Below are positions 32,463-52,755 of a stretch of DNA of 64,000 nt, in pieces. Under the pieces are notes generated by a model. The model did no database searches. It was not told the origin of the DNA and was given only the letters and a program-made list of their open reading frames with translations. The translations under genes and the position numbers were made by a program. The stretch spans positions 6,262,001-6,326,000 of the forward strand of contig NZ_CP102332.1 of NCBI RefSeq assembly GCF_024600715.1, written 5' to 3'. The stretch comes from Streptomyces changanensis (GTDB lineage Bacteria; Actinomycetota; Actinomycetes; Streptomycetales; Streptomycetaceae). Within the stretch, counting starts at the first letter, position 1. The number at the start of each line of letters is the position of its first letter.

Positions 32463-34472
32463 TCACCCCGCGTCCCGCGCCCCGCCCCCGGCCCCGCCGG
32501 CCGACGCGCTCGCGGCCATGTACGCCGACCACACCCGCACCGCGGGCCCGCCCGCACGCCCGCCGGAACCGCCCGTCTCGGAACCGTCCGCACCCGGCCC
32601 GTCCACACGCCCGCCGGAACCGCCCGTGTCGGAAGTCTCCGTTTCCGCGCCCTCCGTACCGGTGCTCTCCAGGGACCCCGGCCCCCCGGGGCCGGAACCG
32701 TCCCCTCCGGTCAGCGGGAGCAGGCCCCCGCCGTCCGGGCGGGTGCGGAAGACGGTGACCGCCGTCGACAGCTCCTCGCCGTAACCGACGAACCACGCCG
32801 CGGGCGACCGGTCCCCGGTCCCCGTGCGGCCCGCCGCGATCGGCCCGAGGGCGCCCAGCGTGCCCGGGTCCACCGCGTCCACCGCCACGTCACGCAGTCC
32901 GCGCGCCACCTCCCGCGCGACGCCCGGGTCGAGCACCTGCCGGGCGGGCGGCCGCTCCAGACCCTCCACAGGAACGCCCCGGTACGTCGCCGCGGTCACC
33001 GAGTACGGGTCGGCGCGCCGCCCGCCGGAGGCGAACGTGGCGTACGCCCCGGCCATCCGGATCGCGCTCGGCGTGGACGTGCCGAGCGCGAACGCCGGCT
33101 CCAGCGGCGCCATGCTGCGCGGCAGCAGGCCCGCGCCGACCGCGACGTCCCGCACCCCGGCCGGCCCGACCGCCTCCCCGAGCCGCAGGAACACCTCCGG
33201 GTCACCCCGGACCAGCGCCCGGCGCAGCGCGAGGGCCCGGCGCGGCGTTTCCTCGCCCACCAGGCCCCGCTGCAGGGCGGCCGCCGCGACGAACGGCGTG
33301 AAGGCGGATCCGGCGGGGACGCCCGCCGTGTCGGCGTTGTTGGAGAAGTGCCGGGTCGCGTCCGGGCCCCCGTACAGCGCCAGCACCGCCCCGTCACCCG
33401 GTCGCACCGACGCCGCGCCGAACTGCACCACACCGTTCGCCCCCCGCGCCCCGCCGTCCGCGCCACCCGTCACCCCCGTGGCCGTGGCCGGGGCCGCGTC
33501 GTCGACGGCCCGCCGCAGCCGCTCCACCGCCGCCCGGTCGAAGGTCGTGCGGATCCGGTACCCGCCGCGCCCGAGCGCCTCGGGGGTGAGCCCCGTCCGG
33601 TTGCGCAGGTCCTTGTCGGCCGCGTCGACCAGGTAACCGACCTGGCCCGCCAGGCCGTTCGCCACCGACCTGGGCCGCGGCTCGGGGAACACGGTGTGGG
33701 CGGCCCGCTCCGCGCGCGTCATCAGCCCGAGCTCCACCTGACGGTCCAGCACGTACCGCCACCGCGCCTCCGCCCGCCGCCGGTGTGCCTCGCCCAGCGC
33801 CGGGTCGTACAGGTCACCGCCCTTCAGCAGCGCGGCGAGCAGGGCGCCGCGGGAGGGGTCGAGGTTCCGCGCGTCGGTGCCGTAGTAGGCCACGGCGGCG
33901 GCCTGCACGCCGTACGCGCCGCGCCCGAACCAGCTGGTGTTGAGGTACCCCTGGAGGATCTCGTCCTTGGACAGGGTCCGCGACAGCTTCACCGACAGGC
34001 ACAGTTCGCGCAGCTTCCGGGACGCCGTCCGCTCCTGCGTGAGGTACGTGTTCTTCACGTACTGCTGGGTGATCGTCGACCCGCCCTGCAGTTCGCCGCC
34101 CCCGGCCGTGGCGACGACGGCGCGGGCCAGGCCGCGCACGGAGAAGCCGGGGTCGCTGTAGAAGGTCGCGTTCTCCGTGGCGATGACGGCGTCGCGCAGC
34201 GGTCGCGGGACGTCGGACAGCGGGACGTTCTGCCGGTTGACCGGCCCGACGCTCACCATCTGAGTGCCGTCCGCCCAGTAGTAGACGGTGGCCTCGGACC
34301 GCGCCTCGGCGTTGACGTCGGGGATCGGGGTCGTCGCGTACACCCACCCGGCCAGCCCGGCTACCGCCGTCAGGCCCAGCAGCACGAGGCCCAGCCACTG
34401 CCGCCACGACGGCACGAACCGTGAAGGGCCGCGGCGCCCCCGGCGCGGGTAGTCGAGACGGACGCGTGTCAC
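32463..34472 (-). CDS. PBP1-type glycosyltransferase with degenerate transpeptidase domain
   Basis: The 669-residue protein has a basic N-terminus and one TM helix (about 27-47). The GT51 peptidoglycan glycosyltransferase domain follows with catalytic Glu100 (IATENATFYSDPGF), QGGSTITQQYVKN, ERTASRKLREL and KDEILQGYLN. This domain looks intact and should polymerise lipid II outside the cell. The transpeptidase half keeps its fold landmarks (FALGTSTPSA, AWFVGYGEE) but has lost all three active-site motifs. SxxK reads S389-A-F-T392, the SxN position reads R-G-D near 422-424, and KTG reads R549-T-G. The tail is Gly/Ser/Glu low complexity. GTG 34472 follows GAGGAGG. Confidence 0.88.
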   Translation of the reverse strand: MTRVRLDYPRRGRRGPSRFVPSWRQWLGLVLLGLTAVAGLAGWVYATTPIPDVNAEARSEATVYYWADGTQMVSVGPVNRQNVPLSDVPRPLRDAVIATENATFYSDPGFSVRGLARAVVATAGGGELQGGSTITQQYVKNTYLTQERTASRKLRELCLSVKLSRTLSKDEILQGYLNTSWFGRGAYGVQAAAVAYYGTDARNLDPSRGALLAALLKGGDLYDPALGEAHRRRAEARWRYVLDRQVELGLMTRAERAAHTVFPEPRPRSVANGLAGQVGYLVDAADKDLRNRTGLTPEALGRGGYRIRTTFDRAAVERLRRAVDDAAPATATGVTGGADGGARGANGVVQFGAASVRPGDGAVLALYGGPDATRHFSNNADTAGVPAGSAFTPFVAAAALQRGLVGEETPRRALALRRALVRGDPEVFLRLGEAVGPAGVRDVAVGAGLLPRSMAPLEPAFALGTSTPSAIRMAGAYATFASGGRRADPYSVTAATYRGVPVEGLERPPARQVLDPGVAREVARGLRDVAVDAVDPGTLGALGPIAAGRTGTGDRSPAAWFVGYGEELSTAVTVFRTRPDGGGLLPLTGGDGSGPGGPGSLESTGTEGAETETSDTGGSGGRVDGPGADGSETGGSGGRAGGPAVRVWSAYMAASASAGGAGGGARDAG

Positions 34473-34706
34473 GGTGGGGGCCTCCTCGGTGCGGTGGAGC
34501 GGCTGCGTCCTCTCCTACGGGGTGCGCCGGCCGCCCGTTCACCGGCGCCCGCCGATCCGAGCCGCCCGCCCGTTCACCGGCGCCCGCCGACCCCGGCCGG
34601 CCGCCGGCAGTCCCCGCACCGGCCCCCACATCGGCCGGCCGGCCGCCCGTCCTCCGCGCCGGTGCCGACCCCGCGCGAGGCGGCCGGCCGCCCGTACGGG
34701 CGCGGT

Positions 34707-35639
34707 TCACGCCGAGTCCAGGCCGGCCAGCCACGACGCGACGGTCCGTGCCAGGGGCAGTCCCGTCTCCAGCTCCACGAAGCCGAACTGGCCACCCTGA
34801 TTGCACTCCAGGAACCACCACACGCCGTCCTCGTCCTCGGCGAAGTCGAAGGCCCCGTAGGCGAGCCGGGCCGTCGCCGTGTACGCGCGCACGGCGCCCG
34901 CGATGCGCTCCGGCACCGCCACGGGCTCCCAGCCGTGGCCGCTGTCGCCGTACCGCCCGTCCACCTGGCCGGGCGCCGACCGCTTGCGCGCGGCGAACAG
35001 CCGCCCGCCCACCGCGGTCAGCCGCACGTCGGCCCGCCGGGGGACGTACCGCTGGAGCAGGGTCGGCGCGGCGGCGACGGCGGCGAAGTCCGCGTCCGGC
35101 CCCACCAGCGCGGTCGGCACGAGCAGTCCCGGCTCCTCGCGCGGCGGCCCGGACAGGGTCTTCACCACCACCCGCCGGTGACGGGCGGCGAACTGCTCGG
35201 CCGCCCGGGGGAACGTCGTCACCACGGTCGGGGGCACGGCGAAACCGCTCCCGTGCGCCACCCGCAGCTGCCACGGCTTGATCCGGGCCCGCTCGGCCGC
35301 GGCCGGGTGGTTCATCCAGCGGGCGGCCGTGGACGACAGCATCCCGTACAGGGCCTGGCCGGCCTCGGCGGTGAGCCAGGCGGACGCCCCCGGCGCCCGC
35401 GCGGCGGGCGTGCCCGGTCTGCGCACCCACACGCCGCGCACCCCCGCCGTGCCGACCAGGCGCCCGTCCACCGACAGGTGGCCGCGGAAGTCGCCGCGCG
35501 CGTACTCGGCGCAGAGCGCGACCCGGCCCGGCAGGTCGGCGGGGTCGAACCGCACCAAGGGGACGCCCAGAGCGCCCAGTTCGGCGACCACGAGGTCCGC
35601 CGTGACGTCCTCCTCGCACGTCAGCACCAGTACCGTCAT
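34707..35639 (-). CDS. ATP-grasp graspetide (omega-ester RiPP) maturase
   Basis: The 310-residue ATP-grasp ligase resembles the MvdD/SAV_5884-type ribosomal-peptide maturases. An N-terminal pre-ATP-grasp domain begins VLVLTCEEDVTADLVVAELG. The ATP-binding Lys lies in RVVVKTLSG. The C-terminal metal/ATP site reads DFAEDEDGVWWFLECNQGGQ with Glu and Asn ligands. The enzyme should activate Asp or Glu side chains of the precursor as acyl phosphates and join them to Thr/Ser hydroxyls as macrocyclic esters. It starts 16 bases after the precursor stop without a strong ribosome site of its own, implying coupling. A 234-base gap precedes the PBP gene. Confidence 0.88.
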   Translation of the reverse strand: MTVLVLTCEEDVTADLVVAELGALGVPLVRFDPADLPGRVALCAEYARGDFRGHLSVDGRLVGTAGVRGVWVRRPGTPAARAPGASAWLTAEAGQALYGMLSSTAARWMNHPAAAERARIKPWQLRVAHGSGFAVPPTVVTTFPRAAEQFAARHRRVVVKTLSGPPREEPGLLVPTALVGPDADFAAVAAAPTLLQRYVPRRADVRLTAVGGRLFAARKRSAPGQVDGRYGDSGHGWEPVAVPERIAGAVRAYTATARLAYGAFDFAEDEDGVWWFLECNQGGQFGFVELETGLPLARTVASWLAGLDSA

Positions 35640-35655
35640 CGCGGACGCCGGCCGG

Positions 35656-35853
35656 TCAGTCGTCGAAGTGCGTCTGGGAGCCGGCCGTCGACGTCGTCGT
35701 GCCGGCAGCCCGCAGCACCTCCGGGTCGGCCACGGCGGGCCGTCCGTCGGGCAGGACGTTCAGTTGGAGCGCGGCGTCGTACGCGTACGGCGGGGCGGTG
35801 CCGGCCCCGGCTCCGGCCGGCACGGCGTACCGCAGGGCGAACGGTCGTCCCAT
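35656..35853 (-). CDS. graspetide precursor peptide (ATP-grasp-modified RiPP)
   Basis: The 65-residue precursor starts at ATG 35853 behind GGGAAGAAG. The leader has the family motifs RPFALRYA and PPYAYDAALQLNVLPDGRPA. The C-terminal core, G51 to D65, reads GTTTSTAGSQTHFDD. It contains seven Thr/Ser donors but only two acidic acceptors (Asp64, Asp65), so at most two ester links would use the core acids. I recognise this as the putative ATP-grasp-target RiPP family of actinobacteria (TIGR04186-like). The usual companion methyltransferase was not found next to it. Product and activity are unknown. Confidence 0.9.
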   Translation of the reverse strand: MGRPFALRYAVPAGAGAGTAPPYAYDAALQLNVLPDGRPAVADPEVLRAAGTTTSTAGSQTHFDD

Positions 35854-35932
35854 GGCTTCTTCCCGATCCCTTCGTCGACCACCGGTGGGTACCGGTGAGT
35901 ACGGGCCGGGGGCGTGGGAAGCTCACCACGAT

Positions 35933-35976
35933 CCGTGACACCGGCCCCGCCGGATGCGGCGGGGCCGGTGTCACGG
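35933..35976 (-). terminator. terminator of the subtilase gene
   Basis: Perfect 19-bp arms (35933-35951 and 35958-35976) and a six-base loop, 18 bases beyond the protease stop, make one of the strongest hairpins here. It should insulate the graspetide operon from protease transcription. Confidence 0.9.
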
Positions 35977-35993
35977 GCGTTGCGCGGAACCGG

Positions 35994-37784
35994 TCAGAAC
36001 GTGAGGTTCCAGGCGTCGATCCGGCCGGAGTCCTGCGTGGCGACGTCGCGCACGCGCAGCTTCCACGTACCGGCGGCGACCTCCGCCGAGGCGTTCACGG
36101 TGTACGTCTTGACGACGTCGTCGCCGCTGTCGCCGTTCGCGAAGTCCTCCAGCGGGTACACCGTGCCGTCCGGGGCGACCAGCGACAGGACGAGGTCGCC
36201 GCGGTAGGTGTGCTTGACGTCCACGCCGACCTTGAGGGCGGCCGGGGCGTTGCCGCTCACGCCGGTGACGGTGATCGGGCTCTCCACCGTGCCGTTGTCG
36301 GTGATCGCGACGTCGGCGGTGTTCTCGAAGTACGTGCCCGGTGTCGGCGTCGAACCGCCGACGGCCTTCAGCGCGTCGGTCTGGCCCTCGCCGAAGAAGC
36401 CGTTCTTCGCGGTCGTGCCCGTGCACCGGCTGTCGGACGGGCAGGCGGTGTCGGTCGCCTGCGAGGCGAGGCGGGCCCGGAGGTCGGCCGGGGTGAACGA
36501 CGGGTTCACGCTGGCCAGCAGCGCGGCGACGCCGGCCACGTGCGGGGAGGCCATCGACGTGCCGTTCATGTTGCCGTACTTGCCGCCGGGCAGCGTGGAG
36601 TAGACGCCGCTGGAGCCGTCGCCGCCCGGCGCGGCGATGTCGATGACGTCACGGCCGAAGTTCGAGTACGAGGCCTTCACGTTGCCGCGGCCCATGGCGG
36701 CGACGGTCACGACGCCCGGCAGTTCGGTGGGGATGTCGACGCAGGCGTTGGTGATCCTGCGGCTCACCGGGGTCGAGTCGTTGGGGCTCGACGTGTCGGT
36801 GGTCTTGTTGGCGAGGTCGTAGTTCGAGTTGCCCGCCGCGGCGACCTGGAGGGAGCCCTTGCCCTCGGCGTACGCCTGTGCGCGCCGGACGCCCTCGATG
36901 ATGGCGGCCTGGTCGGCGTCGTCCGGGCAGTTGAACATCCACGGGTCGGTGTAGTAGCTGTTGTTCGTGACCCGGAAGCCGTGGTCGCCCGCCCACATGA
37001 AGCCGCAGATGGTGTTCTCGGCGAAGAACATCGACGTCGTGGGCTCCGCGATGCGGACGGAGGAGATCCGCACACCCGGCGCGACGCCGATGACGCCCTT
37101 GCCGTTCTTCGCGGCGGCGATGGTGCCCGCCACGTGCGTGCCGTGGGTGCCGACGTCGCGCCACGCGCCGGCCCGCGTGTCCGCCCGGCCGTAGGCGCAG
37201 GAGACCGAGTCGGCGGCGTTGAAGTTCGGGGCGATGTCCTGGTGCAGGTCGTCGACGCCGGTGTCCAGGACGCCGACCTTCACGGTGGCGGAGCCGGTGG
37301 TGACGGCCCACGCCTGGTCGGCCCTGATCTGGGTCATGTCCCAGCGGTCCGACTCGGTGAGCGTCGTCGCGCTCTGCGTGGGGGTGGGCGGCAGGGCCGG
37401 CGCGTACGCGTCGGCGGGCACGTCCGACGTGCGGGTCGCGCCGACCTGCTGGACGCCGCTGACGCCGCGCATCGTCGTGGCGAACGTCGCGGAGGCGGAG
37501 TGCGCGACGACGACGCCGATGGCGTCGTAGTGCGCGAAGACCGTGCCGCCGTTGCCGGCGACGGCGGCGCGCACCGCGGAGGTGTCGCCGGGCGTGGTGA
37601 TCACCAGGTAGGCGCGGGTTCCCGCGGCCCAGGCGCCGGTGGGCGCCGTCGCGGCGGTCGGCGTGGCCGCCGCGGCCTGCGGAGCGGCGGCGGCGGGGGC
37701 CGCGGGTGCCGCGAGGGCGACGGCCGCGCCGAGGGCGACGGCGGCGGCCGAGCGTCTGAGCCCGGCGGATATGTGGGGAAGCAT
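35994..37784 (-). CDS. secreted S8 subtilisin-like protease with P-domain
   Basis: The 596-residue exported serine protease starts at ATG 37784 behind CGGAGG. It has a signal peptide (cleavage after APAAAA, about residue 34), then an inhibitor-I9-type propeptide (about 55-120). The catalytic domain has Asp174 (VGVLDTGVDD), His214 (VGTHGTHVAG), oxyanion Asn (AAAGNSNYD) and Ser410 (NGTSMASPHVAG). A C-terminal proprotein-convertase P-domain (about 485-596) ends RIDAWNLTF. The likely promoter region upstream is unusually A+T-rich (37850-37960). It is separated from the graspetide genes by a strong terminator, so a maturation role is only speculative. Confidence 0.93.
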   Translation of the reverse strand: MLPHISAGLRRSAAAVALGAAVALAAPAAPAAAAPQAAAATPTAATAPTGAWAAGTRAYLVITTPGDTSAVRAAVAGNGGTVFAHYDAIGVVVAHSASATFATTMRGVSGVQQVGATRTSDVPADAYAPALPPTPTQSATTLTESDRWDMTQIRADQAWAVTTGSATVKVGVLDTGVDDLHQDIAPNFNAADSVSCAYGRADTRAGAWRDVGTHGTHVAGTIAAAKNGKGVIGVAPGVRISSVRIAEPTTSMFFAENTICGFMWAGDHGFRVTNNSYYTDPWMFNCPDDADQAAIIEGVRRAQAYAEGKGSLQVAAAGNSNYDLANKTTDTSSPNDSTPVSRRITNACVDIPTELPGVVTVAAMGRGNVKASYSNFGRDVIDIAAPGGDGSSGVYSTLPGGKYGNMNGTSMASPHVAGVAALLASVNPSFTPADLRARLASQATDTACPSDSRCTGTTAKNGFFGEGQTDALKAVGGSTPTPGTYFENTADVAITDNGTVESPITVTGVSGNAPAALKVGVDVKHTYRGDLVLSLVAPDGTVYPLEDFANGDSGDDVVKTYTVNASAEVAAGTWKLRVRDVATQDSGRIDAWNLTF

Positions 37785-38145
37785 GTGTCCTCCGAAGGCC
37801 CGGCGACACGGGAGGCGTCGGGCGGGCCGGGATGAAGAAGTGGTCGAGCCGCAAGATCTCAGATGTGAGCACGTCAAGGGAAGTACCGTTTCGCCACCGG
37901 TTGTTCGCCCTCCGGACGGACATAGGCGGCCCAAGTGCGGCAAAGAGGGGCCGAATCGGCACGCGGTCTCACCACACGGCACCCCCACCGCGGCGGCGGC
38001 AGCCCCCGTCGAGGGGTACGGGCACGTCCTCGCCGGCTCCCCGCCGCCCCGTCGGCCCCACCGCGCCTCACGGACCGCCCGCCCCCGCCGGCCACCCGCC
38101 CCGCCGCTCGCCCCCGCCGACGACCTGCCGTCGGGCCGGGCCGCC
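37785..38145. other. intergenic region upstream of the subtilase
   Basis: About 360 bases lie between the MerR stop and the protease start. The part nearest the protease (37830-37960) has lower G+C and includes TTGACG on the minus strand (37872-37877), a candidate -35. No convincing -10 was found. The remainder (37980-38140) is low-complexity ccgccc-rich DNA without a gene. Confidence 0.4.
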
Positions 38146-39313: not shown

Positions 39314-39343
39314 TTGACAGTGCAGTTAGCGGTACGGGTTAAT
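39314..39343 (+). promoter_or_regulatory. promoter of the terpene synthase/P450 operon
   Basis: TTGACA (39314-39319) and GTTAAT (39338-39343) with an 18-base spacer sit in an A+T-rich island (39220-39345) that is rare in this window. This gives an untranslated leader of roughly 180 bases before the terpene synthase ATG. The consensus -35 suggests vigorous or tightly repressed transcription. Confidence 0.6.
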
Positions 39344-39530
39344 GGAGGCGAATGGCTTCAAAGCGCGGCTCGTCGTTCTCGCGCGAGGGGGAATCGAGCC
39401 GCTCCACTACCGGAGTCGGCGAGGTTGCCACGGTGTTGTGACAGCCCGGCCGCGAGCTCGAATCCGGTCGCGGGCCGCACGGCACGTGCGCGGAGAATGG
39501 TGGACCGGGATTTCCTTCGGAGGGACATCG

Positions 39531-40571
39531 ATGCCCCATCTCGACTCTTTCACGATTCCGGAATTTCATCTTCCATTTGAAAACTCGAAGGACCCGGCGG
39601 CAGACCGCGCCAACGCAGAGGCTACCGCCTGGGCCGTGGACCGGGGGCTGATCGACGGTGCCTGGGAACAGTTCGCCGGCATCGGCTTCGGGCACCTGAC
39701 GGCGCGGGTCGACCGCGGCGCGCCGTACGAGCGCATCGTGCTGCTCTCCGAGTGGATGGCCTGGTCGTTCGTCCTCGACGACCAGCACGACCTGCTCATC
39801 AGGGAGGGTCGCCTCGACGCCTGGCAGCCGGTCTCCGACGCGATCGCCCGCCATGTGCGGGGCGAGCGTTCGGGCCGGCCGGGCGCGGCCCCGCACAGCG
39901 CGCTGCTCGACACCTTCGTCGAGCTCTGCGACCGGATCCTGGCCGGTATGCCCCCCTCGATCCAGGACCGCTACCGGGTCCACGTGCCGCGCATGCTGCG
40001 CTCCCTGGACGAGGAGGCGGCCAACCGGCGCCCCGGCCACCGGCCCACCGTCGAGGAGTACGTCCTCACCCGCCGGCACAGCTCCCAACTCCTGCCGATG
40101 ATGGACATGGTCGAGGCCGACCAGGGCATCGAGGTCCCCGCCGAGATCCGCCGGAGCCCCGCCTTCCAGGAGCTCGCCTGGAGCGCCATCGACGTCATCT
40201 CCTGGGGCAACGACGTGTTCTCGCTGCCCAAGGAGTACTCCTGCGGGGACACCAACAACCTCGCCGCCCTGCTGGCCGCCTGGCACGACCTGACCCTCAC
40301 CGACGCCGTACGGGCCGTGGAGGAGCGCGTCCACGCCCGTGTCGAGGACTTCCTCGCCGCCGCCCGGCGCCTGCCCGGCGCGCTGGAGGGGTTCGGCGTG
40401 ACCGACGCCGCCGCGCGCACGGCCACCGACCGCTGCGTCCGCAGCTACGAGGACTGGATGGTCGGCGCCGACCTCTGGCAGCGTTACGACTGCACGCGCT
40501 ACCGGGACGAGCGGTTCGCCGCCGGGCTCGAAGCCGCGTACACCCGACCGGACCTGCTCTCCGCGGCATGA
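39531..40571 (+). CDS. class I terpene synthase
   Basis: The 346-residue cyclase has the size of bacterial mono- or sesquiterpene synthases and ionises a prenyl diphosphate in the cytoplasm. The metal-binding aspartate motif is D83-D-Q-H-D87 (SFVLDDQHD). The NSE triad is N227-D-V-F-S231-L-P-K-E235. The C-terminal RY pair is R323-Y324. ATG 39531 follows CGGAGGG and the conserved IPEFHLPF begins ten residues in. The product is not predictable; sesquiterpene is the best guess from length. Its stop overlaps the P450 start (ATGA), so the pair makes an oxidised terpenoid. Confidence 0.93.
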   Translation: MPHLDSFTIPEFHLPFENSKDPAADRANAEATAWAVDRGLIDGAWEQFAGIGFGHLTARVDRGAPYERIVLLSEWMAWSFVLDDQHDLLIREGRLDAWQPVSDAIARHVRGERSGRPGAAPHSALLDTFVELCDRILAGMPPSIQDRYRVHVPRMLRSLDEEAANRRPGHRPTVEEYVLTRRHSSQLLPMMDMVEADQGIEVPAEIRRSPAFQELAWSAIDVISWGNDVFSLPKEYSCGDTNNLAALLAAWHDLTLTDAVRAVEERVHARVEDFLAAARRLPGALEGFGVTDAAARTATDRCVRSYEDWMVGADLWQRYDCTRYRDERFAAGLEAAYTRPDLLSAA

Positions 40572-42013
40572 GGGGAAAGCCCGTGGCCCGTACCAGCCAC
40601 CGCACGTCCAGCGACGGACCCGAGCGGTCCGACGGCCCGGCCCGACCCGGCCCCGACGGGCCGGGGCCCGCCCGGCCGGGCGCCACCGCCGTCGCCCCCA
40701 TGGCGCCCGGACGGCTGCCCGTCCTCGGCCACGCCCTCCAACTGTGGCGCGGCCCCATCGCCTTCCTCGAATCGCTGCGCCCCGCCGGGGCCGTCGTCCG
40801 CGTCGACCTCGGCGGCTGGCCCCTGCACGTCCTCACGGACCCCGACCTCATCCACACCGTCCTCGTCGGCGAGGCGCAGGACTACGGGCGCGGCCGGATC
40901 TTCGAGAAGCTCCGCCCCCTCTTCGGCAACGGCATCGCCACCACCGACGGGGCGTTCCACCGCAAGCAACGCCGGCTCATGCAGCCGGCGTTCCAACGCA
41001 ACCGCATCAGCCGGTACGCGGAGCTGATGTGCCGCGAGGCGGACGCCATGGCCTCCTCCTGGTCCGCGGGCACGGAGGTCCGCGTCGACCGCGAGATGCG
41101 CCGGTTCGCGCTCTCCGCCGTCGCCGGCATGATCTTCTCCGGGGACGTCGACCAGCCCGCCGTGCGGGAGGTGCACCGGTCGTTCCCGATCATCCTGGAG
41201 GGCATGCTCGTCCGCACGGTCATGCCCAAGGCGTTCGACCGGCTCCCCATCCCCCTCAACCGGCGCTTCGACGGGGCCGCCACCCGCCTGCGCGCCATCA
41301 TCGACGAGGTCGTCGCCGAGTACGGTCCCGAGGACCGCGGCCAAGACGACCTCATCTCGCTGCTGCTCTCCAGCACCGACGCCGAGACGGGCGAGACGAT
41401 GAGCGCCGAGCAGGTGCGCGACGAACTCATCACCATCCTGTTCGGCGGCACCGAGACGGCCTCCACCACCCTGTCGTGGATCTTCCACGAACTGGCCCGC
41501 CACCCCGACGTGGAGAAGCGCGTCCACGCCGAGGTCGACGCCGTCGTCGGTGACCGCCCCGTGCGCCCCGACGACCTCGCCGCCCTGACGTACACCCGGA
41601 GCGTCTTCGAGGAGTCGCTGCGGCTCCACTCGCCGCTGCTCTTCACCCGCCGCACGCTCACCCCGGTCACCCTCGGCGGCGTGGCCATCCCCGCCGGGGC
41701 CGAGATCGCGTACAGCCCCTACGCGCTCCACCGCGACCCCGCGCTGTTCCGCGACCCGACCACGTTCGACGCCGACCGCTGGAGCGACGCCGACCCCTCG
41801 CGGCTGCCGCGCCTCAACAGCTTCATCCCCTTCGGCGCGGGCCAGCACAAGTGCATCGGCGACGCCTTCGCCGTCGCGGAGATCCTCAGCGCGGTCGCGA
41901 GCGTGGCCTCGCGGTGGCGTCTGGCCCCGGTCCCCGGCAGCGTCGTGAAGGAGGTCCCCGCCGGCATCCCCCTGCCCGACGCGCTCCCCATGGTGCCCGT
42001 ACCGCGGCGCTGA
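40568..42013 (+). CDS. cytochrome P450
   Basis: The 481-residue P450 has all hallmarks. These are the I-helix oxygen-binding segment FGGTETAST (G293-T297), the ExxR pair E349/R352 (EESLRLHS), and the haem loop FGAGQHKCIGD with Cys429 as thiolate ligand. A Pro/Gly/Ala-rich N-terminal 45 residues contains no membrane anchor. ATG 40568 overlaps the terpene synthase stop; GTG 40583 is an alternative start. It is most likely the tailoring oxygenase for the terpene made by the preceding enzyme. Ferredoxin partners must come from elsewhere. Confidence 0.93.
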   Translation: MRGKPVARTSHRTSSDGPERSDGPARPGPDGPGPARPGATAVAPMAPGRLPVLGHALQLWRGPIAFLESLRPAGAVVRVDLGGWPLHVLTDPDLIHTVLVGEAQDYGRGRIFEKLRPLFGNGIATTDGAFHRKQRRLMQPAFQRNRISRYAELMCREADAMASSWSAGTEVRVDREMRRFALSAVAGMIFSGDVDQPAVREVHRSFPIILEGMLVRTVMPKAFDRLPIPLNRRFDGAATRLRAIIDEVVAEYGPEDRGQDDLISLLLSSTDAETGETMSAEQVRDELITILFGGTETASTTLSWIFHELARHPDVEKRVHAEVDAVVGDRPVRPDDLAALTYTRSVFEESLRLHSPLLFTRRTLTPVTLGGVAIPAGAEIAYSPYALHRDPALFRDPTTFDADRWSDADPSRLPRLNSFIPFGAGQHKCIGDAFAVAEILSAVASVASRWRLAPVPGSVVKEVPAGIPLPDALPMVPVPRR

Positions 42014-49511: not shown

Positions 49512-49924
49512 TACGGGGCGGGCGGCGACGACGGCGGCTGCGCGCGGTCAGGCGTGCCCAGCCACTCGCCGAGCGCCTGCGCGGTCCGCACCGCCTCACC
49601 GCCGAGCTCGCCGAGGCGTGCCTTGCGGTTGGTGACGACGACGAGCGTGCTGCCCTCGCCGCACCCGACGAGGCACAGGTACCGCTCGTCCATCTCGACC
49701 AGCTGCCGGATCACCCGTCCGCCGTCGACGTCGCGGGATATCGCCCGCATCGTCGCGGCGACACCGGAGGACGCCGCCGCGATGCGTTCGGCCTGCGCGC
49801 GGTCCAGCAGGTAGGCGCTGAGCATGATCCCGTCGTTGGACAGGAGCACCGCCCCCTCGATGCCGGCGATCCTGCTCAGGTTGTTGTCCAGGACGCTGTA
49901 GATCATGTCGTTCGTCGTTGTCAT
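49511..49924 (-). CDS. cvnB: conservon roadblock/LC7 protein CvnB
   Basis: The 137-residue roadblock/LC7-domain protein is expected to act as regulator of the GTPase. Typical segments are IAGIEGAVLLSNDGIMLSAY, ERIAAASSGVAATMRAIS and RYLCLVGCGEGSTLVVVTN. The C-terminal Pro/Ser tail is unusual but short. It overlaps cvnA by four bases (ATGA). Confidence 0.93.
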   Translation of the reverse strand: MTTTNDMIYSVLDNNLSRIAGIEGAVLLSNDGIMLSAYLLDRAQAERIAAASSGVAATMRAISRDVDGGRVIRQLVEMDERYLCLVGCGEGSTLVVVTNRKARLGELGGEAVRTAQALGEWLGTPDRAQPPSSPPAP

Positions 49925-52332
49925 GGCTGATCCTGTCGGAGCTCTTCTTCCACTTTCCGGGTCCCGTCCTCGTACTCCGCCCAGGCGTCGGCCACTTCCT
50001 CGGGGCTCGCCCCGTCGTGGCCGGTGCCCGGGCCCGTCCCGGTCTCCTGGGCGGCCGCGCCGCCGTCCCCGGGGGGCGGCGTGCGCAACTGCTCGACCAG
50101 GTGCGTCTGCGGTACGCGCTCCGGCAGGGGCGGGCGGGCGGCGCCGTCCCCGTCCCCGCCGGGAGGCGGTGCGTCCTTGCGCCGCCGCACGGGCAGCGCC
50201 GCGCCCTGCCGCGACGCCGGCCGCGACGTCTCGCCGCGGTCGTCCGGCCGCCGCTCGGTCGTAGCCGGCGCCGGGGCCGGTCCGCGCGCCGGGGGACGGG
50301 CCTGGGCCGGCAGTCGGGCGGGGGCCGCGGTCGGATCCGCCGTCCCGTCCACCGTCCCGTCCACCGCCCCGTCCGCCGTCTCGGGGCCGGTCGGGACGAG
50401 CAGCTCTCGCGGGACGAGCACCACGGCCGCCGTGCCGCCGTACACCGAGCGACGCAGCGTCACCGTCGCGCCCAGCTGGTGGGCGAGGTGGCCCACCACG
50501 AACAGGCCCAGCCGGTGCGCGTTTCGCGCGAGCACGGCGTACGGCGGGGCCGAGTGGAGGCGGGCGTTCATCTCCGCGTACCGCTCGGCGCTCACGCGCG
50601 GGCCGCGGTCCTCGATCTCCACCGACAGACCGTCGGCGACCACCTCCGCCCGGATCACCACCCGGGAGCGAGGCGGGGAGAAGCGGGTGGCGTTGTCCAG
50701 CAGCTCCGCCAGCAGATGGCTGACCTGGCTGATGACGCGAGCCTCCACGCTGATCTCGTCGAGTGCCTGACGGTCGATCCGCCGGAAGTCCTCGACCTCC
50801 GCCGCGGCCTCGCGCAGCAGGTCGGCGACGCGCATCGGCTCGGTATGGGGGTCGGGGACCTCACCGCCCGCGAGGATCAGCAAATTCTCGACCTGCCGCC
50901 GCATGCCCACCGTCAGCTGGTCGGCGCGCATCAATCCGCCCAGCAGCGCCTGGTCCCCGCCGAACGCGTCCTGCAGCTCCTCCGTCAGGGCCAGCTGGCG
51001 ACTGACCAGGTTCCCGGTACGCGAGGCGATGCCCGCGGCGAAGCTGCCGAAGCCGTCGCGTTCCGCGGCGAGCTGACGCTGCCCGTCGACGGAGACCGCG
51101 ACGACCCGGGCGAACGCGTCGCTGACCCGCCCGACCTCGTCCCGCTCGCCGCGCACCCGGGGCAGCGCGTCCTCGTCGACCGGTCTGCCCTGCCGCAGCC
51201 GCTCCACGACGTCCGGGAGGGTCCGTTCGGCGACGGTCACCGTGCGGTCGTGCAGCAGCCGCAGCCGCCGCAGCACGGAGCGGGTGGTGACCGTGACGAC
51301 GGTGACGACCGCGATCAGCGCCCCGCCGGTGACGGCGACGAGCCGGGTGACCTCACGCTCCAGGTCCGTCGCCTTGGCGTCGCCGTGGGCCAGCAGGCCG
51401 CGCAGGCGGGCGGCGTCGAGGGCCGTCAGGTCGTCGGACCACCGGGCGTGGGCGGCCGTCCAGTCCTTCGCCTCCCGCGGCAGCCGCACGCCGAACGGCA
51501 GGTCCTCGTGGCCGGCGAGGACACGGTTCTCCACACGGGTCTTGGCCTGCCACGCCTCCGAGCCGACGAGCCGGGCGTAGCGGTCGCTCTCCGCGGGCGG
51601 CAGGTGGGGGACCACCCACCGGTCGTACAGGTACCGGTGCGCGCCGACCGCGTTGACGAATTCCGCGAAGCGCGTCGTCTCCAACTCCCGCGACGGGCCC
51701 GCCAGCGCCAGGAGGGTGTCCTCCCGCGCCAGCATCTCGGAGGCGGAGAACATCGTGACGAGGACCTGGCTCTCCTTGGTGAGCTCGCCGTCCTCGGTGT
51801 GGCCGAACGCGTCCTGGTAGAAGCGGATCATCTGGCCGATCACGCCGTCGTAGTACGCGACCGTGCTGTCGGGGCCGCCGGTGCGCGAGTCCGCGCGCTC
51901 GCGCTGGGCGCCCAGTGCGTCGAGGCCGTCGAGTACCTCCCGGAGTCGGCGATCGGCCTCCTCGGAACCCCCTCCGGCGGACGCGGCGGCGCTGCGGAAC
52001 CGGGCCGCGGCGCGGTCCGTGGCCGCCCGGTGGGCGCGCAGTCCGGCGGCGGGCGCGGACGGATCGGTCCAACGGGCGGCGGCGGCCGTGCGCTCCGCCT
52101 GCATGCCCGTCATCAGCGCGTGCAGCGGCAACCCGAGCCGCTCACCGGCCAGCACGTCGGACCGCAGGTGGGCGGACTGCTCCAACAGCCGGTCGGCGGT
52201 CACGGTGACCAGGGTGGCCATCGCGGCGGTGGGCACGACGGCGAGCAGGACGAGCAGGGTGCGCAGGCGCACGGTGCGCCGTCGACGACGGGTCGACGGG
52301 CCTCGCGCGCCCTCGGGTCGGGTGGGAGACAT
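49921..52332 (-). CDS. cvnA: conservon sensor kinase CvnA
   Basis: This 803-residue sensor starts at ATG 52332 after GAGGG; an ATG at 52443 has no ribosome site. It has TM1 (LLVLLAVVPTAAMATLVTVT), an extracellular nitrate/nitrite-sensing-like helical domain (about 40-340), TM2 (VTGGALIAVVTVVTVTT), a HAMP-like linker and a GHKL ATPase domain with N-box LAELLDNATRFSPP and HRLGLFVVGHLAHQLGA. The tail is disordered and Pro/Ala-rich. Where such kinases commonly have DHLATR, this one reads ADQLTVGMRR, so the usual His is Gln. It may therefore signal without autophosphorylation. Confidence 0.92.
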   Translation of the reverse strand: MSPTRPEGARGPSTRRRRRTVRLRTLLVLLAVVPTAAMATLVTVTADRLLEQSAHLRSDVLAGERLGLPLHALMTGMQAERTAAAARWTDPSAPAAGLRAHRAATDRAAARFRSAAASAGGGSEEADRRLREVLDGLDALGAQRERADSRTGGPDSTVAYYDGVIGQMIRFYQDAFGHTEDGELTKESQVLVTMFSASEMLAREDTLLALAGPSRELETTRFAEFVNAVGAHRYLYDRWVVPHLPPAESDRYARLVGSEAWQAKTRVENRVLAGHEDLPFGVRLPREAKDWTAAHARWSDDLTALDAARLRGLLAHGDAKATDLEREVTRLVAVTGGALIAVVTVVTVTTRSVLRRLRLLHDRTVTVAERTLPDVVERLRQGRPVDEDALPRVRGERDEVGRVSDAFARVVAVSVDGQRQLAAERDGFGSFAAGIASRTGNLVSRQLALTEELQDAFGGDQALLGGLMRADQLTVGMRRQVENLLILAGGEVPDPHTEPMRVADLLREAAAEVEDFRRIDRQALDEISVEARVISQVSHLLAELLDNATRFSPPRSRVVIRAEVVADGLSVEIEDRGPRVSAERYAEMNARLHSAPPYAVLARNAHRLGLFVVGHLAHQLGATVTLRRSVYGGTAAVVLVPRELLVPTGPETADGAVDGTVDGTADPTAAPARLPAQARPPARGPAPAPATTERRPDDRGETSRPASRQGAALPVRRRKDAPPPGGDGDGAARPPLPERVPQTHLVEQLRTPPPGDGGAAAQETGTGPGTGHDGASPEEVADAWAEYEDGTRKVEEELRQDQP

Positions 52333-52755
52333 CAGCCCTCGGGAGCGGCAGCGGGGACGTTCGGCCGCCGCACCGGTGCGGCCCGCGGAGGGGCTGCGGG
52401 ACCCACCGGTGCGGCTGCGATGAAGCGTGGGGGTGCCGATCATAACCAGCCAGGACCCGTTCAGGTCAGGTTGTCCCCATGATCGGAAAGTGGTAACCCG
52501 CGTGCGCAGTGTGGCGGGAAGTGGCCGTCATGTGGCCATCATGTGGCCGATCCGACCCCGATCCGACCCCGATCGGGCCCCGATCGGCGCCCGATCCGAC
52601 GTGCGGCGGTCCGGTGCTGCCCCGGCGCGGTCCGTGGCGGTGCCGCCGCGTCCGCCCGTCCGGGTGCTGCCCGTTCGGCGTGGCCCGCGCCCACCGGCGA
52701 AGCTTCGGCGCGAAATGTGCACATGAGCGCGGGGAGGACACCACCGGAGGTTCCC

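Follow-up and report, generated by a model that had tools for sequence, protein, structure and literature searches.

Whether a compact pair of genes in Streptomyces changanensis encodes a true graspetide and, if so, of what kind and in what possible role, is the question raised by the locus described here. It lies in a stretch of 64,000 nucleotides (NZ_CP102332.1, positions 6,262,001 to 6,326,000 of the forward strand), referred to below as the window, in which a sequence-only reading had proposed a 65-residue precursor with an Asp-Asp end standing 16 bases before an ATP-grasp ligase. Both ATG frames bear out this arrangement, with the ligase downstream and 16 bases (35640–35655) between the precursor stop and the ligase ATG. 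In window positions, the elements on which the argument turns are as follows:

35656–35853, minus strand: graspetide precursor of 65 amino acids, ATG frame, Strep_pep family, of prunipeptin type by its ligase
34707–35639, minus strand: PruB-type ATP-grasp graspetide synthetase of 310 amino acids, ATG frame
35818–35847, minus strand: leader motif RPFALRYAVP (precursor residues 3–12), a likely ligase recognition element
35659–35703, minus strand: conserved core GTTTSTAGSQTHFDD (precursor residues 51–65), with putative core limits

The gene pair is a genuine graspetide pair. The precursor scores 49.4 bits against TIGR04186 and 106.6 bits against Pfam PF14404 Strep_pep (cut-off 25 for each), and the ligase scores 356.6 bits against NCBIfam TIGR04187 (cut-off 350), with the MvdC, MvdD and RimK models scoring well below; the family-model check thus supports the earlier assignment. 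The 6.9-Mb genome that carries the window holds one TIGR04187 match above cut-off. Moreover, the ligase contains an MvdD-like pre-ATP-grasp domain (PF21068, 32 bits, cut-off 27), such that the locus has what is expected of a graspetide, namely an ATP-grasp peptide macrocyclase with this domain and an adjoining precursor with a leader motif and a core of donors (Thr/Ser/Lys) and acceptors (Asp/Glu). The precursor ends in GTTTSTAGSQTHFDD, directly before a TGA stop, and D64 and D65 are, as had been claimed, the only acidic side chains of this core. The ligase does not fall into a non-peptide-ligase family; it groups with the peptide macrocyclases PruB, MdnC, MdnB and CdnC, whose structures are those nearest to it, and the small frame is kept beside homologous ligases in all 80 and all 38 loci of two sets considered below. 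A PDB search using the precursor gave a single chance match (E 0.74).

As to the kind of graspetide, the closest solved relative of the ligase is PDB 9BOU, titled PruB of S. coelicolor (60–64% identical, 402 bits), and a PruB-like ligase is what marks the prunipeptin type, which makes it very likely that the locus belongs to that type. PruB, we infer, is named after prunipeptin, reportedly described by Unno and Kodani in 2021 as a bicyclic peptide of S. prunicolor. Two acidic residues would allow two side-chain rings, which fits a bicyclic product. The locus is ordinary and already named, one of a known kind (3,589 members in a published count) rather than an orphan.

With high confidence, this is read as a two-gene graspetide locus, very likely of the prunipeptin type, in which a leader-bound precursor would acquire two omega-esters and a bicyclic core. 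The PruB-like ligase would bind the precursor through its N-terminal RPF-type leader motif and phosphorylate both terminal Asp residues on their side-chain carboxylates; attack of Thr/Ser hydroxyls on the activated Asp would then form two omega-esters, and with them a bicyclic core and two losses of 18 Da. Transcription would proceed from a promoter of the extracytoplasmic function (ECF) type, and a protease and an exporter encoded elsewhere would finish the peptide. Leader binding, Asp phosphorylation, Thr/Ser attack and dehydration are given as established for relatives in passages of PMC12291112, PMC13003496 and PMC13097080; for the present locus, the role of the leader, both esters and the way they connect, the maturation steps and the use of an ECF-type promoter are predictions. 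By analogy, RPFALRYAVP is likely the ligase recognition element: a passage of PMC13003496 names RPFG as the tetrapeptide by which the fuscimiditide leader is recognised, and one of PMC8939145 gives Phhx(1,2)h as a general leader motif of graspetides. Leader residues P4 and F5 are invariant in 26 aligned relatives, and elsewhere the Pro is replaced by Leu (loci L167/L244) or by Ala (L209–L211). With the core numbered G1 to D15, D14 and D15 are the only side-chain acceptors available, with the C-terminal carboxylate as a possible third. Since T2, T4 and T6 vary among relatives, two from the set T3, S5, S9 and T11 most likely serve as donors, and the best guess would be a nested hairpin in which T3 and S5 are joined to D15 and D14.

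Several points weigh against so specific an account. The ligase clears the TIGR04187 cut-off by a mere 6.6 bits, and the identity of the core with that of prunipeptin is presumed from the name of PruB and from counts. The C-terminal carboxylate could serve as a third acceptor, as is proposed for SsfA in part of PMC10787088. Invariance, furthermore, cannot separate ring-forming residues from those kept for other reasons, A7, G8, H12 and F13 being invariant as well, and the cross-links of the core are predicted from the genes.

The constraint on the core can be seen in 139 sequences (112 DNA versions, 13 protein versions), in which positions 3, 5, 7, 8, 9, 11, 12, 13, 14 and 15 are identical and T2, T4 and T6 are replaced in some relatives by A/S, A/V and K; this invariance is partly built in, because the set was gathered by the core motif, and one genome may occur in it twice. 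Over the 15 core codons of these sequences (3,000 random pairs) the ratio of nonsynonymous to synonymous polymorphism (pN/pS) is 0.095, compared with 0.47 for the 19 codons ahead of them; purifying selection on the core family is strong. A less biased check began from the ligase: at E ≤ 1e-60, 35 of 150 genomes gave 40 matches. Thirty-eight of these 40 loci were read (30 from the ligase search, the window being L228, and 8 others; G067:C1:694816 and G218:C1:1292646 were left out), and the core is present in all 38, at ligase identities to the window as low as 46%. A script requiring the leader motif only recovered 36 of the 38 cores, and the two that it missed, L238 and L249, show the core as L218 and L217. 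Between loci with a core of this THFDD type whose ligases are 40–50% identical, core identity averages 0.89 (306 pairs), as against 0.48 in graspimiditide-type loci at the same ligase divergence (57 loci, 581 pairs), a comparison affected by the differing length and complexity of the two kinds of core and drawn from 137 THFDD-type loci picked by an AGS motif, with some places counted twice and loci without a recognised precursor dropped. The core looks to have been frozen while its ligase diverged. By contrast, a passage of PMC8939145 describes high diversity among the core peptides of a large cluster of actinobacterial precursors united by their leaders. Neither the frozen core nor the promoter element discussed below was found described in the literature searched, key subscription papers and supplements lying outside that search, and either may be known; the core string is likewise absent from the literature matches listed.

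As regards distribution, 270 homologous precursor proteins were found at E ≤ 1e-3 (best 120 of 270 listed). A precursor model, A1, built from 26 precursors, matches in 161 of 295 Streptomyces species at E ≤ 1e-6, a count that includes genome G085, whose locus L216 has a core of another type. The locus type is therefore present in about half of the sampled Streptomyces species and is less novel than the interest given to it in the sequence-only reading would suggest. Across a sample of the whole class, A1 matches 19 of 296 genomes, every one from the window's genus. From a family-level TIGR04186 search, 20 chosen stretches were read; they show that further genera of the family have the same core (L199–L201 and L203–L211 among them), with different cores in L202, L212 and L213. 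In several Streptomyces species (G218, G067, G104, G212 and others) the THFDD-type precursor model matches at two separate sites; the two cores of G218 differ, L121 ending in TAGSQTHFDD and L168 in KAGSATHFDD.

The extent of the conserved unit follows from the 80 best of 438 loci found, for which the search patterns included GS[QKA]THFDD, such that core invariance in this set, too, is partly built in; flanks were shortened in 17 of the 80. In every one a ligase match stands after the precursor, on the same strand; it covers just 160 residues in L050, and in L045 its frame extends abnormally beyond the usual end. Besides these two genes, no cluster of flanking frames reaches beyond 16 of the 80 loci, as judged by a home-made gene caller that may miss small genes, and no conserved local candidate gene for leader removal and export was found. 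TTA codons occur in the ligases of 3 of the 80 loci, and there is therefore no general TTA (bldA-type) control. Translational coupling is suggested for L204–L208, which belong to other genera of the family: there the stop of the precursor and the start of the ligase, as taken from the alignment, seem to share one base.

A third gene has nevertheless to be considered, together with two elements that lie between it and the precursor:

35994–37988, minus strand: S8 subtilase carrying a proprotein-convertase P-domain, immediately upstream of the precursor
35933–35976, minus strand: perfect 20-bp hairpin (loop of 4 bases) shortly past the end of the S8 gene, terminator-like, no T run
35900–35925, minus strand: ECF-like promoter element TGAGCTT-N15-CGTA (−35-like part 35919–35925, −10-like part 35900–35903), 46 bases before the ATG

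That the S8 peptidase is a dedicated leader protease, and the locus thus a three-gene cluster, is improbable. The gene adjoins the precursor on the same strand, and the order S8–precursor–ligase–PBP is retained in L041, L042 and L084, yet these three are among the nearest relatives, so that the shared order is explicable by descent. In the other 77 of the 80 loci (17 of the 80 with shortened flanks) the S8 gene was not found, save for a distant 30% match in L056, and in the window the strong hairpin and the promoter-like element stand between it and the precursor. The S8 and PBP genes recur together in only those 3 of 80 loci and were rejected as locus parts.

Less probable still is a graspimiditide (group 13) locus, the esterified core of which would be aspartimidylated by a methyltransferase like protein isoaspartyl methyltransferase (PIMT) acting in trans. 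The TIGR04186 and TIGR04187 families are indeed shared, and the genome has PIMT-like genes, but none exceeds the TIGR04188 (PIMT-like) cut-off, the best match reaching 304.7 bits against 380 and lying 3.9 Mb away. Moreover, a PIMT-like gene accompanies 29 of 30 graspimiditide-type controls (the top TIGR04187 hits) but only 1 of the 80 THFDD-type loci, where it is about 7 kb off (flanks ≤ 8 kb). The window core has no loop Asp, its terminal DD being its sole acids, and the ligases of other, graspimiditide-type TIGR04187 loci are about 32–42% identical to that of the window. A linked PIMT, the TIGR04188 member expected of a graspimiditide locus, was accordingly rejected. Equally slight is the chance that the pair is a decaying relic without a product, as an abnormal ligase in 2 of 80 relatives (L050 and L045) might suggest, given that both window frames are intact, the catalytic residues of the ligase are retained and change in the core family is strongly selected against (pN/pS 0.095).

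The locus appears, in addition, to carry a promoter-like element of its own. From 141 upstream regions two duplicates of the window were removed and the rest thinned to 91 below 75% identity; a pattern written after viewing these regions, roughly (T/G)GA(A/G)N(T/C)(C/T)-N15/16-CGT(A/T), is shared by 53 of the 91, the window included, whereas 100 dinucleotide shuffles gave 0.68 on average and never more than 3. With GT or CT four bases before it, the pattern is found in 52 of the 91. It is missing from 38, several of them near misses, and from the other-genus loci L199, L201, L204–L206 and L208. An unsupervised motif search led to this position as well (log-likelihood 895.5 against 109.8 for shuffled regions, with 25 restarts for the real and 15 for the shuffled). 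The form GGAAACC-N16-CGTATA, in 33 of 141 regions, belongs to one clade, which is not that of the window; this strict form, different from the window's, is near-unique, occurring once in 9 of ten such genomes and not at all in the other. The looser GAAACC-N15-17-CGTATA occurs 12 times over ten genomes, against once for a reversed control; 10 of the 12 sites are of the clade type, 9 of these being placed at the graspetide locus, either from coordinates or by inspection, and the tenth lying in G193. In appearance the upstream element is close to promoters read by ECF sigma factors, such as the sigma-E site ATGAACC...CGTATA given for sco6178 in part of PMC6767563, and by this analogy it is a putative promoter. 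A scan of 34450–36100 for a sigma-70-type promoter and a T-tailed terminator found neither. The hairpin beside the element is strong (−51.2 kcal/mol, z −6.64) and is absent upstream of the precursor in the closest relative, L041 (97% identical); it was therefore perhaps recently gained or lost. Folding behind the ligase is not significant (z −1.24).

Two further observations concern this upstream region. A symmetric element, TYAC-N5-GTRA, stands directly before the −35-like box as TTAC..GTAA in L160 and L162 and as TCAC..GTGA in L110 and L112; it has the look of a candidate palindromic regulator site. The loci L076, L086, L090, L093, L098 and L154, with the core GTTASTAGSKTHFDD, do not have the common promoter pattern and seem to share a different upstream sequence.

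What the peptide might be for can be put only tentatively. It is possible, though we would not favour it strongly, that what the THFDD-core pair makes is no diversifying secondary metabolite but a peptide frozen in sequence and dedicated to signalling or housekeeping in Streptomyces and its family: a near-invariant bicyclic core, made by one ligase from its own ECF-type promoter, in a compact module in changing surroundings, matured by general proteases and exporters. Since the peptide sequence is near-fixed while the ligase drifts below 50% identity, one conserved target or receptor is most likely, and we would guess at a peptide with a conserved physiological function in Streptomyces, not at a variable weapon. 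Such a target or receptor, if true, makes a physiological role testable, and the promoter-like element offers a handle on the timing of peptide production.

Elsewhere in the window, a family 2 terpene synthase (39342–40571) and then a cytochrome P450 (40589–42013 region) form a probable two-gene terpene locus on the plus strand (39342–42013), and 49921–52443 on the minus strand encodes a large histidine-kinase-like protein with a nitrate/nitrite-sensing (NIT) domain.

Among known systems, the prunipeptin locus and PruB share with the window a PruB-type ligase (60–64% identical), an origin in Streptomyces and, in the two acceptors of the window core, a fit to a bicyclic product; they differ in coming from other species (S. 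prunicolor, and S. coelicolor for 9BOU). The graspimiditides (fuscimiditide, amycolimiditide, albusimiditide and SsfA) resemble it in having a pair of the TIGR04186/TIGR04187 type, a leader motif of proline and hydrophobic residues, and Thr and Asp as donors and acceptors, whereas the window locus has no PIMT adjoining the pair, no loop Asp site and a short conserved core. The microviridin macrocyclases MdnC and MdnB and the plesiocin enzyme PsnB are 18–29% identical to the window ligase and go with other leaders and other cores; microviridins, moreover, use two ligases and add a lactam.
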